DNA of 8,743 nt from a bacterium (lineage in GTDB: Bacteria; Blakebacterota; Blakebacteria; Blakebacterales; Blakebacteraceae): NCBI GenBank assembly GCA_025774615.1, contig JALGVQ010000190.1, positions 1 to 8,743 on the forward strand, read 5' to 3'. The position numbers were made by a program, and so were the translations under genes. Shown here one piece after another: positions 2,956 through 8,736 of the stretch (within the stretch, counting starts at the first letter, position 1; each line of letters opens with the position of its first letter). The notes beneath the pieces are model-generated. The model made no database searches. It was not told where the DNA came from and saw only the letters and a program-made list of their open reading frames with translations.

Positions 2956-4353
2956 ATGGAGAAGATGACAGAGGATAAGCGCCGCAGATCGTGGGCAGAA
3001 CCATTCAAGATCAAGGTAGTCGAGCCGGTACGCATCACCTCACATGAGGAACGGACTGATGCACTCGATGAAGCGGGGTGGAACACATTCCTGCTGAAGA
3101 GCAGGGATGTCTACATCGACCTCCTGACCGACAGCGGGACGAGTGCCATGTCTGCCAGTCAATGGGCCGGCATGATGCTGGGGGATGAGGCATACGCCGG
3201 AAGCATCAACTTCTACAACCTCTGCGAGGCCGTCGAGGAGATCTACGGCTTTCCCTACCTGGTGCCGACCCACCAGGGTCGAGCCGCCGAACATATGATC
3301 AGCCAGATCCTGATCTCTGAAGGTGACTTCATTCCCGGGAACATGTATTTCACCACCACGAAGCTGCACCAGGAACTCGCCGGCGGGACCTTCGTGGATG
3401 TGATCATCGACGAGGCGCATGATCCAGCGAGTGAGCACCCCTTCAAGGCCAACGTCGATCTGAACAAGCTGGAGGATCTCATCAACCGGGTGGGGGCCGA
3501 TCGGATTCCCTACTTCTGTCTCGCCACCACGGTGAACATGGCCGGTGGACAGCCGATAAGCATGGAGAACATCCGGGACCTCCACACACTCTGCCGGAAG
3601 CACGATATCCCTGTCTATCTCGACAAGACCCGTATCGCAGAGGGCGCCTATTTCATACAACAGCGGGAGCCGGGATATGAAGGGAAGAGTGTCGCAGAGA
3701 TCGTTCTCGAGATCTGTTCCCTTATGGAAGGGGCATGGATGAGTTCGAAGAAGGACCATCTGGTGAACATCGGGTATCTGGCACTGCGTGACGCAGACGT
3801 CTTCGAGCAGGCCCGGAACATGGTGGTCATCTACGAGGGACTGCACACCTATGGTGGAATGGCCGGCCGTGACATGGAGGCTCTAGCGCGCGGGATTTAC
3901 GAATCAGTGGAGGATGATCATATCGCGGCTCGTGTCGGTCAGGTTGTCTACCTCGGCGAGAAGATAGCCGCTGAGGGAGTTCCGATCATTCAGCCGGTCG
4001 GCGGCCATGCGGTCTTCCTCGACGCCAGGGCATTTCTCTCCCATCTCGATCAGGAGGAGTTCCCGGCCCAGCGGCTGGCAGGGGAAATATATCTCGAGGG
4101 TGGAGTGCGCAGTATGGAACGGGGTATTGTATCTGCCGGGCGGAACAGTGAAACCGGTGAGAACATCCGCGTCGGCCTGGAACTGGTGCGTCTTACCATC
4201 CCTCGGAGGGTCTACACTCAGGCACATATGGATGTGACCGCCGAAACGATCTGGGAGGTCTGGGACCGTCGCGATTCGATCAGGGGCCTCGAGATGGTGC
4301 ACGAACCACAATACCTGAGATTCTTCCAGGCACGCTTCCAGCCGAAGGATTGA
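2956..4353 (+). CDS. tpl: Tyrosine phenol-lyase (beta-tyrosinase)
   Basis: This 465-residue PLP enzyme should split L-tyrosine into phenol, pyruvate and ammonia. It follows the Citrobacter freundii enzyme from end to end, from my memory of that sequence. The PLP lysine is Lys266 in MSSKKDHLVN. Asn194, Asp223 and Arg226 hold the cofactor and Arg412 (VRLTIPRR) the carboxylate. Residues separating it from tryptophanase are of the phenol-lyase type: Thr133 (YFTTT; tryptophanase has Asp), Arg389 (SMERG) as the equivalent of Arg381, AGRDMEA at 303-309, and Phe456. Tyr80, the proposed proton donor to phenol, is kept. Differences include DKTR for DATR and NIGYLAL for NIGGFL, with one residue fewer. 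It is cytoplasmic, with no signal peptide. The start could be Met1 (2956) or Met4 (2965), as neither ribosome site is ideal. It nearly abuts manC. Confidence 0.87.
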   Translation: MEKMTEDKRRRSWAEPFKIKVVEPVRITSHEERTDALDEAGWNTFLLKSRDVYIDLLTDSGTSAMSASQWAGMMLGDEAYAGSINFYNLCEAVEEIYGFPYLVPTHQGRAAEHMISQILISEGDFIPGNMYFTTTKLHQELAGGTFVDVIIDEAHDPASEHPFKANVDLNKLEDLINRVGADRIPYFCLATTVNMAGGQPISMENIRDLHTLCRKHDIPVYLDKTRIAEGAYFIQQREPGYEGKSVAEIVLEICSLMEGAWMSSKKDHLVNIGYLALRDADVFEQARNMVVIYEGLHTYGGMAGRDMEALARGIYESVEDDHIAARVGQVVYLGEKIAAEGVPIIQPVGGHAVFLDARAFLSHLDQEEFPAQRLAGEIYLEGGVRSMERGIVSAGRNSETGENIRVGLELVRLTIPRRVYTQAHMDVTAETIWEVWDRRDSIRGLEMVHEPQYLRFFQARFQPKD

Positions 4354-5487: not shown

Positions 5488-7602
5488 ATGAATCCCCGAA
5501 TGATCGCCCGGAGGATATCTTCACCCACGCTGGTTCTTGTTCTCATCCTGTCCATATTCTCTCAGCGCGCCGGCGCACAGGAAGTTGAACTCGAACAGAT
5601 CATGAGCTTCCACTTTCCCTCGAACCTCGTGGCAGCACCGGCGGGAGAGAAGATCGCCTGGATCGGTAACCAGGAGGGCAGAAGAAACGTCTGGGGGGCA
5701 GAAGCTCCTGGCTGGGAGGCACGCCGCCTCACCAGGTATCTCGAAGATGACGGGCAGGAACTGAGCGGACTTTCCTTTCTGCCGGACGGTCAACGGCTGA
5801 TCTATCTGAGGGGAGGCGCATCCAACCGGGACGGAGAACTCCCCAATCCCGTCAGCGATCCGGGTGGGGTCTCCCGTGACCTGTGGCTGGTGTCATGGAC
5901 CGGTGATGATCCGATCCGCATCGCAGGCGCCGTCTCGCCCCGTGTCTCCCCCGTCGATGAAAAGATCGTATGGGTCGCCGCCGGCCGATGCATGCTGCTC
6001 GATACGGCAGAAGAGATCACCCATCCCATGCCGACGGTCCTGTTCCAGGTGCGCTCAGGCCTGAACGACCTGCAGTGGTCTCCCGACGGCACGATGCTTG
6101 CATTCTCCAGCGCCCGCGACGGGCGGGAGATCCTGGGTGTCTACGACCTCAAGAGGGAAGAACTGCGTTGGCTCACCAACACGGTAGACCGCGATTCCTC
6201 GCCGCGGTGGTCACCGGACGGCAGCCGACTTGCCTTTCTCCGCCGGCCGGTAGATCACCGGGGATATGCGCTCTGTGTCGTGGATGTCGCCAGCGCAGAA
6301 GCAACCGAGTTGTGGCGTTCTTCCGGTGACGGTTCCGGTTACTATCCGGGCGCGATCGCCGGGTCGTACGGACTCATGTATGGTGACGGCCACATAGTCT
6401 TTGCGGGTGAGTGGTCGGGGTGGAACCATCTCTACGTGATCCCCGATGGAGGTGGAGAAGTACGTGAACTGACTCCGGGAGAGGGGGTCATTGAGAATGC
6501 CGTACTCTCACCCGATGGGCAGTGGGTCTATGTGAGTCATAACCTGCATTCGATCGACTTCCGCCAGCTCAGCCGGATTCACCTTGCAGACGGGGCTGTG
6601 CAGTCGATCGAGGAGGGGGATGTCATCGCCTGGAACCCGGTCATGGTCCGTGACCATGATTGGCTCGCCTATCTTCGTTCCGACGCCCTCGAACCGGCCA
6701 GCGTCTATCTCAGGGCATCGGAGAGTGATGAGGGATCACGCATCTCGCCCATGCCGGATGGGTATCCCCTGACCGGTCTGGTCGAACCGCAGCAGGTGGT
6801 GTTCGAGGCGGCTGACGGTGTCATGATCCACGGCCAGCTCTTCGTACCCGACGGACTCAGGCGACGGGACCGGGTGCCGGCGGTCATCTTCATGCACGGT
6901 GGATCGCGCCGGCAGATGCTGTTGGGATGGCACAACCGCGGCTACTATCACAACGCCTATGGATTCAACCAGTACCTGGCGTCGCGGGGGTACGTGGTCC
7001 TCTCGGTGAACTACCGGAGCGGGATCGGGTATGGGGTCGGTTTCAGGGAGCCGGATGAGTTCGGCTACCAGGGAGCGTCGGAGTACCAGGATATCGTCGC
7101 CGCGGGACGCTACCTGCAGGACCTCGACACGGTCGATCCCGACCGGATCGGCCTGTGGGGCGGCTCGTATGGCGGATATCTGACCGCGTTGGGTCTGGCG
7201 CGTGATTCCGATCTCTTCAAGGCAGGTGTCGATCTTCACGGGGTCCATAACTGGGCAGACCAGCTCAGGTGGTGGGGCAGGGGTGAGTCGGCCGGAATGA
7301 ACCAGACAGTCCTCGATTCGATGATGAAGACAGCCTTCGAATCGAGCCCGGTGGCCGATATCGATTCCTGGAGATCACCGGTACTCATCGTACATGGTGA
7401 TGACGACCGGAATGTTCCTTTTGAAGCGAGTATCGATCTTGTGAAGAGACTGCGCCGCAAAGGGGATGTTATCTTCGAGGAACTCTATTTCATTGATGAC
7501 GTCCACGGGTTCCTGCTCCACCGGAACTGGCTGGAGGTCTACCGGAGGGCGACGACGTTTTTCGATCGCTACCTGAAAGAGGGAGCCGACAGGAATCACT
7601 GA
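5488..7602 (+). CDS. Secreted S9 family prolyl oligopeptidase-like serine peptidase
   Basis: The 704-residue product starts with a signal peptide: basic MNPRMIARR, hydrophobic LVLVLILSIF, and a likely cut after AGA (residue 30). A beta-propeller of PD40-type repeats follows (FLPDGQRLIYL about 98, WSPDGTMLAF 197, WSPDGSRLAF 241, LSPDGQWVYV 340). An alpha/beta hydrolase domain begins near 440. The catalytic triad is Ser560 in GGSYGG, Asp640 in HGDDDRNVP and His673 in DVHGF. MHGG at 469-472 contributes to the oxyanion region. The order matches DPP4 / acylaminoacyl-peptidase-type S9 enzymes, which cut short peptides, often after proline. I see no membrane anchor beyond the signal peptide and no lipobox, so periplasmic or extracellular action is likely. 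It is 27 bp after manC with a consensus ribosome site. The exact S9 subfamily is uncertain. Confidence 0.92.
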   Translation: MNPRMIARRISSPTLVLVLILSIFSQRAGAQEVELEQIMSFHFPSNLVAAPAGEKIAWIGNQEGRRNVWGAEAPGWEARRLTRYLEDDGQELSGLSFLPDGQRLIYLRGGASNRDGELPNPVSDPGGVSRDLWLVSWTGDDPIRIAGAVSPRVSPVDEKIVWVAAGRCMLLDTAEEITHPMPTVLFQVRSGLNDLQWSPDGTMLAFSSARDGREILGVYDLKREELRWLTNTVDRDSSPRWSPDGSRLAFLRRPVDHRGYALCVVDVASAEATELWRSSGDGSGYYPGAIAGSYGLMYGDGHIVFAGEWSGWNHLYVIPDGGGEVRELTPGEGVIENAVLSPDGQWVYVSHNLHSIDFRQLSRIHLADGAVQSIEEGDVIAWNPVMVRDHDWLAYLRSDALEPASVYLRASESDEGSRISPMPDGYPLTGLVEPQQVVFEAADGVMIHGQLFVPDGLRRRDRVPAVIFMHGGSRRQMLLGWHNRGYYHNAYGFNQYLASRGYVVLSVNYRSGIGYGVGFREPDEFGYQGASEYQDIVAAGRYLQDLDTVDPDRIGLWGGSYGGYLTALGLARDSDLFKAGVDLHGVHNWADQLRWWGRGESAGMNQTVLDSMMKTAFESSPVADIDSWRSPVLIVHGDDDRNVPFEASIDLVKRLRRKGDVIFEELYFIDDVHGFLLHRNWLEVYRRATTFFDRYLKEGADRNH

Positions 7603-7657: not shown

Positions 7658-7698
7658 TGAACGACCAGTGAACACACATGTGAGGGAAAGGAAGAAGC

Positions 7699-8736
7699 AT
7701 GGCCGGTGATATCACCAGGCTGACGGCACTCGTCACCTGCGCTGGTTGAGCGTCCAAACTGGGTCCGGCGGACCTGTTCAGGGCACTCAGCGCGCTCGAA
7801 GTAGAGGATCACCCGGATCTCCTGGTGGGAACCGCCACCATGGATGACGCCGGAGTATTTCGTCTCGACGAGGAGACCGCTCTGATCCAGACGGTCGATT
7901 TCTTCACCCCGGTCGTTGATGATCCCTCGACTTTCGGGGCCATTTCGGCCGCGAACAGTCTCTCAGATGTCTACGCGATGGGCGGCCGTCCCATCACTGC
8001 GCTCGGTATCGCGTGCGTTCCTGATGATTTCGACATGGACGTGCTCGGGCTGATATTGCGGGGTGGGCAGGAGAAGGCGCACGAAGCGGGTGTTCCGGTC
8101 GTTGGTGGTCACACGGTCAAGGCGCCAGAGCTGAAATTCGGCCTTGCCGTGACCGGCATAGCCCATCCCGACCGGCTGGTGACGAATGCCGGCGCGCAGT
8201 CGGGAGATCGTCTCTATCTCACCAAACCGCTCGGTACGGGCGTGATCAGTACGGCCGTGAAGTCAGAGAAGTGTCCTCCCGAAGTGCTCGACGAGGCCAT
8301 CGAAGTGATGCTTACCCTGAATGCCGCCGCTGCTGAAGCGATGCTCGAAGCGGGGGCGGTCGCCTGCACCGATGTCACCGGATTCGGTCTCGGAGGTCAT
8401 GGTCATCAACTGGCCCTCTCGAGCGGCGTCGCGCTCGAGATCAACCTTGCCGCGCTTCCGGTGCTGACCGGAGCAGTGGATATGATCGGTGAGGGGCTCA
8501 TCCCGGGTGGTCTTGCCACGAACCGGAAATTCCTCGAATCGTGGGTGTCCGGGACATCACCGACAGGGGGGCAGATCGAACTGCTCTACGATACTCAGAC
8601 GAGCGGAGGGTTACTAATCTCGATCCCGGAGAGTGGGGCCGCCGCGCTTGAAAAAGCCTTGATGGAGCGAGGCGTCCCCGTTCACCAGATAGGCAGGGTG
8701 GTGGAAGGACGCCCCGGTTCGATAACCATATATTAG
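7699..8736 (+). CDS. selD: Selenide,water dikinase (selenophosphate synthetase), selenocysteine-containing; TGA 7747-7749 read as Sec
   Basis: SelD uses ATP and selenide to make selenophosphate, the selenium donor for selenocysteine tRNA and selenouridine. The gene starts at ATG 7699 after AAGGAAG and is 345 codons, close to the E. coli 347. Codon 17 is TGA. The surrounding protein, TCAGUASKLGP, aligns with the catalytic loop where E. coli has Cys17 and Lys20, here Sec17 and Lys20. Asp50 (MDDAGVF), Asp67, Asn86 and Asp90 (AANSLSDVYAMGG), GGHT (136-139), Asp225 (TDVTGFGLGGHGH) and DTQTSGGLL (298-306) cover the metal/ATP sites and C-terminal domain. An in-frame start after the TGA (GTG 7825) would remove the catalytic loop. 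The stop is TAG 8734-8736. It lies 96 bp after the peptidase gene; no selA, selB or selC is in the window. Confidence 0.95.
7754..7783 (+). promoter_or_regulatory. Candidate bacterial SECIS element in selD
   Basis: Just after the Sec codon, GGUCC (7762-7766) and GGACC (7770-7774) form a perfect 5-bp stem with loop GGC. A lower helix CUG (7759-7761) / CAG (7779-7781) plus CC/GG lies beyond a UGUU bulge. The loop starts 17 nt after the TGA and carries G at its first two positions. This fits the general bacterial SECIS description (short loop with an early G, about 16-37 nt from the UGA). SelB should bind it to direct Sec insertion. Confidence 0.7.

Follow-up and report, generated by a model that had tools for sequence, protein, structure and literature searches.

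An in-frame TGA at codon 17 of selD, and a predicted selenocysteine-containing selenophosphate synthetase, in a sparsely sampled bacterial phylum

The selD frame and its catalytic loop

The window, which is the whole stretch of DNA analysed here (8,743 nt), is the entire contig C273 of the draft MAG G000 (3.3 Mb, 324 contigs, 82% complete). In our comparison its phylum comprises four genomes from two genera of one family, in which G001 belongs to the same genus as G000 and G003 to the sister genus. Upstream of selD, the window encodes in order a CRP-like protein, an amidohydrolase, a tyrosine phenol-lyase, ManC and an S9 peptidase, and this order is the same in G001, where selD is split over two contigs. 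The tyrosine phenol-lyase-like protein (2956-4353) reaches 715 bits against TIGR02618, slightly below the cut-off of 720.7, and its gene is directly followed by the mannose-1-phosphate guanylyltransferase-like gene, again as in G001. Positions 1-201 encode the C-terminal part of a glycine/arginine-rich repeat protein (GRGSMGRGQAGFSR repeats) with a proline run at its end; in G001, the N-terminal part of its relative (L060:7840-8595, minus strand) is LTEDQ/Spy-like. Rfam gave no match on the window, and no tRNA was found in it. The features of selD are as follows.

7684-7696, plus strand: purine-rich ribosome-binding stretch GGGAAAGGAAGAA, 5' of ATG 7699, by inspection only
7699-8736, plus strand: selD, predicted Sec-containing selenophosphate synthetase (345 aa, Sec17), from TIGR00476 and alignment with E. 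coli 3u0o and Aquifex 2yye
7738-7758, plus strand: Se-binding/catalytic loop C14-A-G-U17-A-S-K20, from translation and alignments
7747-7749, plus strand: in-frame TGA, codon 17, predicted Sec, from translation; also in G001, G003 and other genomes
7825-8736, plus strand: mechanical ORF expected from standard gene calling, start GTG 7825 (303 aa, without Sec17 and Lys20)
8734-8736, plus strand: selD stop TAG, from translation of the window

Read from ATG 7699 on the plus strand, the protein begins MAGDITRLTALVTCAG-U-ASKLGPADL... and extends over 345 residues to the TAG; codon 17 is the only TGA in the frame. The earlier note had placed this TGA at the catalytic Cys/Sec residue, and both the translation and the alignment with E. 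coli SelD agree with it to the base. Against the TIGR00476 selD model (cut-off 125), the read-through protein reaches 357.6 bits over residues 7-312, and it carries both AIRS domains, AIRS and AIRS_C (PF00586, 90.7 bits; PF02769, 59 bits). In a phmmer search against solved structures it matches E. coli SelD 3u0o at 1e-66 over residues 5-341, and Aquifex SelD 2yye was also matched. Residue 17 is aligned with E. coli Cys17 and Lys20 with Lys20, likewise in Aquifex 2yye (SSGCAAKVGPGDL), and the N-terminal loop thereby presents the Cys/Sec position and the lysine of the family. The note had also claimed that the residues flanking the TGA match the family loop; this holds for Lys20, but the loop reads CAG-U-ASK where E. 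coli has AG-C-GCK. Cys14 and Sec17 form a CxxU pair. Elsewhere in the window TGA serves as an ordinary stop (e.g. 4351-4353 and 7600-7602), and there is therefore no general code change.

Conventional calling was said to give 303 residues from GTG 7825 and to lose the active site, and the ORF list agrees exactly. If GTG 7825 (or ATG 7840) were the true start, the product would be a shorter SelD-like protein lacking the catalytic loop. This form is the default ORF and still reaches 323.8 bits against TIGR00476, about 34 bits less than the read-through protein, with the first 40 model positions lost. However, 7825 lies 3' of the family loop and its Lys20, a ribosome-binding stretch precedes 7699, and codons 1-16 are conserved with mainly synonymous changes. 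Indeed, we counted three synonymous and no non-synonymous differences between G000 and G001 in these codons, and six synonymous and two non-synonymous between G000 and G003; few as they are, these differences suggest purifying selection 5' of the TGA and so speak against translation from 7825. By inspection, stretches resembling the ribosome-binding stretch of the window stand at the equivalent start position in G001 (AAAGGACGGAGC-ATG) and G003 (GGAAGGGAGGATGCC-GTG). We consider a late start extremely unlikely.

Conservation of the TGA and the hairpin downstream

The TGA at codon 17 is kept in the selD genes of G001 and G003, at a position where homologues have Cys. Among the 41 genomes compared, 23 SelD genes or fragments besides that of the window contain exactly one in-frame TGA; wherever their N-terminus was translated, it lies at the codon-17 position, and the same is true of nine further named loci. 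The recurrence of a single TGA at one codon across genomes is more than chance. The named SelD relatives, from Fermentibacterota and others, are not close (40-53% identity).

These data bear on whether the gene is an ordinary Cys-SelD in which codon 17 was misread in sequencing or assembly, or mutated to a stop in a pseudogene. A single base change would suffice to restore TGC or TGT and the MAG is a draft, but the TGA recurs in the independent assemblies of G001 and G003, which makes a base-call error at 7747 very unlikely, and apart from the TGA the frame is uninterrupted, with conservation both before and after it. With the Sec machinery and other selenoproteins also present (see below), this explanation is in practice refuted by the relatives and keeps only a negligible probability.

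Directly 3' of the TGA, the mRNA can fold into a hairpin.

7750-7790, plus strand: predicted bacterial SECIS
7761-7766/7770-7775, plus strand: apical stem GGGUCC/GGACCU, 6 bp, 17 nt after the TGA
7767-7769, plus strand: apical loop GGC, 3 nt, beginning with GG, from folding

The bSECIS model, as quoted in PMC13188914, requires a loop of 3-9 nt, an upper stem of 4-16 bp, a G in the first two loop positions, a distance of 16-37 nt from the UGA and an MFE of -7.5 or lower, and the hairpin at 7761-7775 agrees with it in every term. The 44 nt from the UGA have an MFE of -20.2 kcal/mol (z -2.55 against dinucleotide shuffles). We also compared selD with shuffles in which the protein was fixed and the codons were redrawn from the usage of this genome; the hairpin score admitted spacings of 13-36 nt, slightly wider than the bSECIS model at the low end. 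The selD of the window stands out for the hairpin (P 0.0095) and for the MFE (P 0.025). A hairpin of this strength came up in 0.95% of the shuffles of G000, in 9% of those of G001 and in 3% of those of G003; the overall MFE signal is weak in G001 and G003 taken singly (P 0.11 and 0.32), and the lower stem varies among relatives and is not conserved. Many other Sec-SelDs also lie in the tail of the shuffle distribution. The Cys-SelDs with a full N-terminus in the 41-genome set are three (G003, G004 and G032), all of them NifS-SelD fusions, and their genes gave no hairpin signal against shuffles (P 0.54, 1.0 and 0.63).

Selenocysteine machinery and other candidate selenoproteins

The earlier note held that this genome makes Sec and called for a search for selA, selB and selC; all three are present in the MAG, on contigs other than the window. 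SelA is encoded at C132:4303-5682 (509 bits; PF03841). SelB (C262:843-2924, 693 aa) scores 321 bits in its main stretch, or 346 when the matches along the frame are added up, and has the GTPase, the SelB beta-barrel and winged-helix domains 2 and 3 (PF09106/PF09107), the winged helices being the SECIS-binding part. The tRNA-Sec gene selC (C184:26225-26318) reaches 66.2 bits against RF01852 (cut-off 47) and is called tRNA-SeC with anticodon tca by ARAGORN. As the four sel genes are on four different contigs, their linkage rests on binning. One SelD copy was found, and no second one, in this 82% complete genome.

Besides SelD, we identified 13 likely selenoproteins in the MAG, nearly all of the thioredoxin fold, with TGA at a redox-motif position and mostly with SECIS-like hairpins (C171 has no clear one).

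PF00578 candidates with one in-frame TGA: C72, C244, C47, C51, C141:9511, C109, C213, C111 and C171 (L091-L099)
SelW-like Rdx protein, YCAVU: C48 (L100), TGA also in G003
PF13899 candidate, WUGYC: C64 (L174)
PF13899 candidate, GUHWC: C155 (L175)
PF13899 candidate, YUPHC: C44 (L176)

The nine PF00578 candidates come from 16 matches to this family in G000; orthologues with TGA are present in G001-G003, and many of the 13 likely selenoproteins have orthologues that keep it. The TGA motifs include FTFVUATE in a peroxiredoxin, WUPPC, WUGPC and TUGGC in TlpA-like proteins, and the deiodinase-like FGSFTUPPF (PF00837). Deiodinase-like selenoproteins, apparently secreted (FGSFTUPPF/Y), are shared by at least three of the phylum's four genomes (L097 and L098 on C213 and C111 of G000, L107 on C117 of G002, L108 on C461 of G001), with PF00837 tested on the two from G000.

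With SelD, these partial searches give 14 candidates; since organisms with at least six selenoprotein genes are regarded as selenoprotein-rich (PMC5029168), this organism belongs among them. Four of the candidates (C44, C47, C48 and C51) lie in a 520 kb sample (C1-C60), which would very roughly correspond to 25 in this genome, an estimate and not a count. A codon-bias scan of this sample for TGA-interrupted genes was noisy: its first version missed known cases, and in the second, C44, C51 and C47 were picked up along with many false positives, and the short SelW gene was missed. For this reason we claim no firm total.

No TGA is seen in the PF00384 matches of the phylum's four genomes (that of the window being 82% complete), so FdhA is not the Sec consumer in the genomes examined; the AhpD/CMD and DsbA families gave no match in the MAG of the window. 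Sec-decoding organisms without FdhA were reported to all have Sec-SelD (PMC1794560), and the presence of Sec-SelD without a Sec-type FdhA fits this report. It is about an even chance that this barely sampled phylum (four genomes) is selenoprotein-rich, with perhaps 20-30 per genome, most of them thioredoxin-fold proteins that are secreted or lipoproteins (TlpA-like, peroxiredoxin, deiodinase-like), and with no Sec-type formate dehydrogenase detected, and that SelD, rather than FdhA, may sustain the Sec trait.

A TGA read as another amino acid (Trp, Cys or a near-cognate) with no Sec is another reading, and Sec-independent read-through of an SPS UGA was proposed for selenoproteinless insects (PMC4561486). 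However, residue 17 is the catalytic Cys/Sec site, selA, selB and selC are all present in this genome, and it encodes many redox proteins in which a TGA comes with a SECIS-like hairpin; we give such a reading hardly any weight.

A predicted Sec-SelD and its known counterparts

Altogether, 7699-8736 is almost certainly a functional selD in which the UGA of codon 17 is decoded as selenocysteine, a reading made from sequence comparison. For Sec insertion itself and for the chemistry of the protein, we infer from the known family the following course. Translation would start at ATG 7699, and Sec would be delivered at codon 17 by SelB, which would bind both Sec-tRNA-Sec and the hairpin immediately 3' of the UGA. 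Sec17 and Lys20 would then form the mobile catalytic loop that handles selenide, with ATP used to produce selenophosphate, which may in turn feed SelA for the synthesis of SelD itself and of the other selenoproteins of the organism.

Among prokaryotic selenoproteins, Sec-SelD ranks second in how widely it occurs, and it is already known to depend on its own product. The arrangement is thus well known, and the earlier note rightly acknowledged that Sec-SelD occurs in some bacteria. Its call for a recoded stop in the annotation was justified, the default ORF truncating SelD; without one, SelD would be truncated or missed, as would at least a dozen redox proteins of the lineage. A poorly known phylum would also join the heavy selenium users, with its main demand in thioredoxin-fold selenoproteins and not in FdhA. 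What remains mildly interesting is this selenium-rich lineage in a sparsely sampled phylum.

Aquifex aeolicus SelD (PDB 2yye/2zod; Sec-containing SelD/SPS2 type, TIGR00476), which is naturally Sec-containing and was crystallised as a Cys form, is homologous to the protein of the window over its whole length. With Sec-containing bacterial SelD/SPS2 in general, the protein of the window also shares Sec/Cys at the equivalent loop position, the Lys after it and a SECIS-like hairpin directly 3' of the UGA, but its loop differs, being CAG-U-ASK with a CxxU pair. This variant is on record, in about 5.6% of the single-domain Sec-SelDs of a marine set (PMC2398784), and a Sec-SelD here is not a surprise. 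E. coli Cys-SelD (PDB 3u0o) aligns end to end (5-341) with equivalent Cys17/Lys20 positions, whereas the protein of the window has Sec for Cys, followed by ASK where E. coli has GCK.

Finally, the NifS-SelD and Ndh-SelD fusions (PMC4561486, PMC2398784) have the SelD domain in common with the protein of the window, and a NifS-SelD occurs in the same family, in G003. Only two prokaryotic NifS-SelD fusions were reported in 2015 (PMC4561486). Here, NifS (cysteine desulfurase)-SelD fusions with Cys (GLGCACK) were found at L064:773-2989 (G003), L029 (G004) and L067 (G032). As G003 has both a Cys-containing NifS-SelD and a Sec-SelD, the Cys form could bootstrap Sec synthesis there. In contrast to the fusions found here, which carry Cys, the SelD of the window is a single-domain protein with a predicted Sec.
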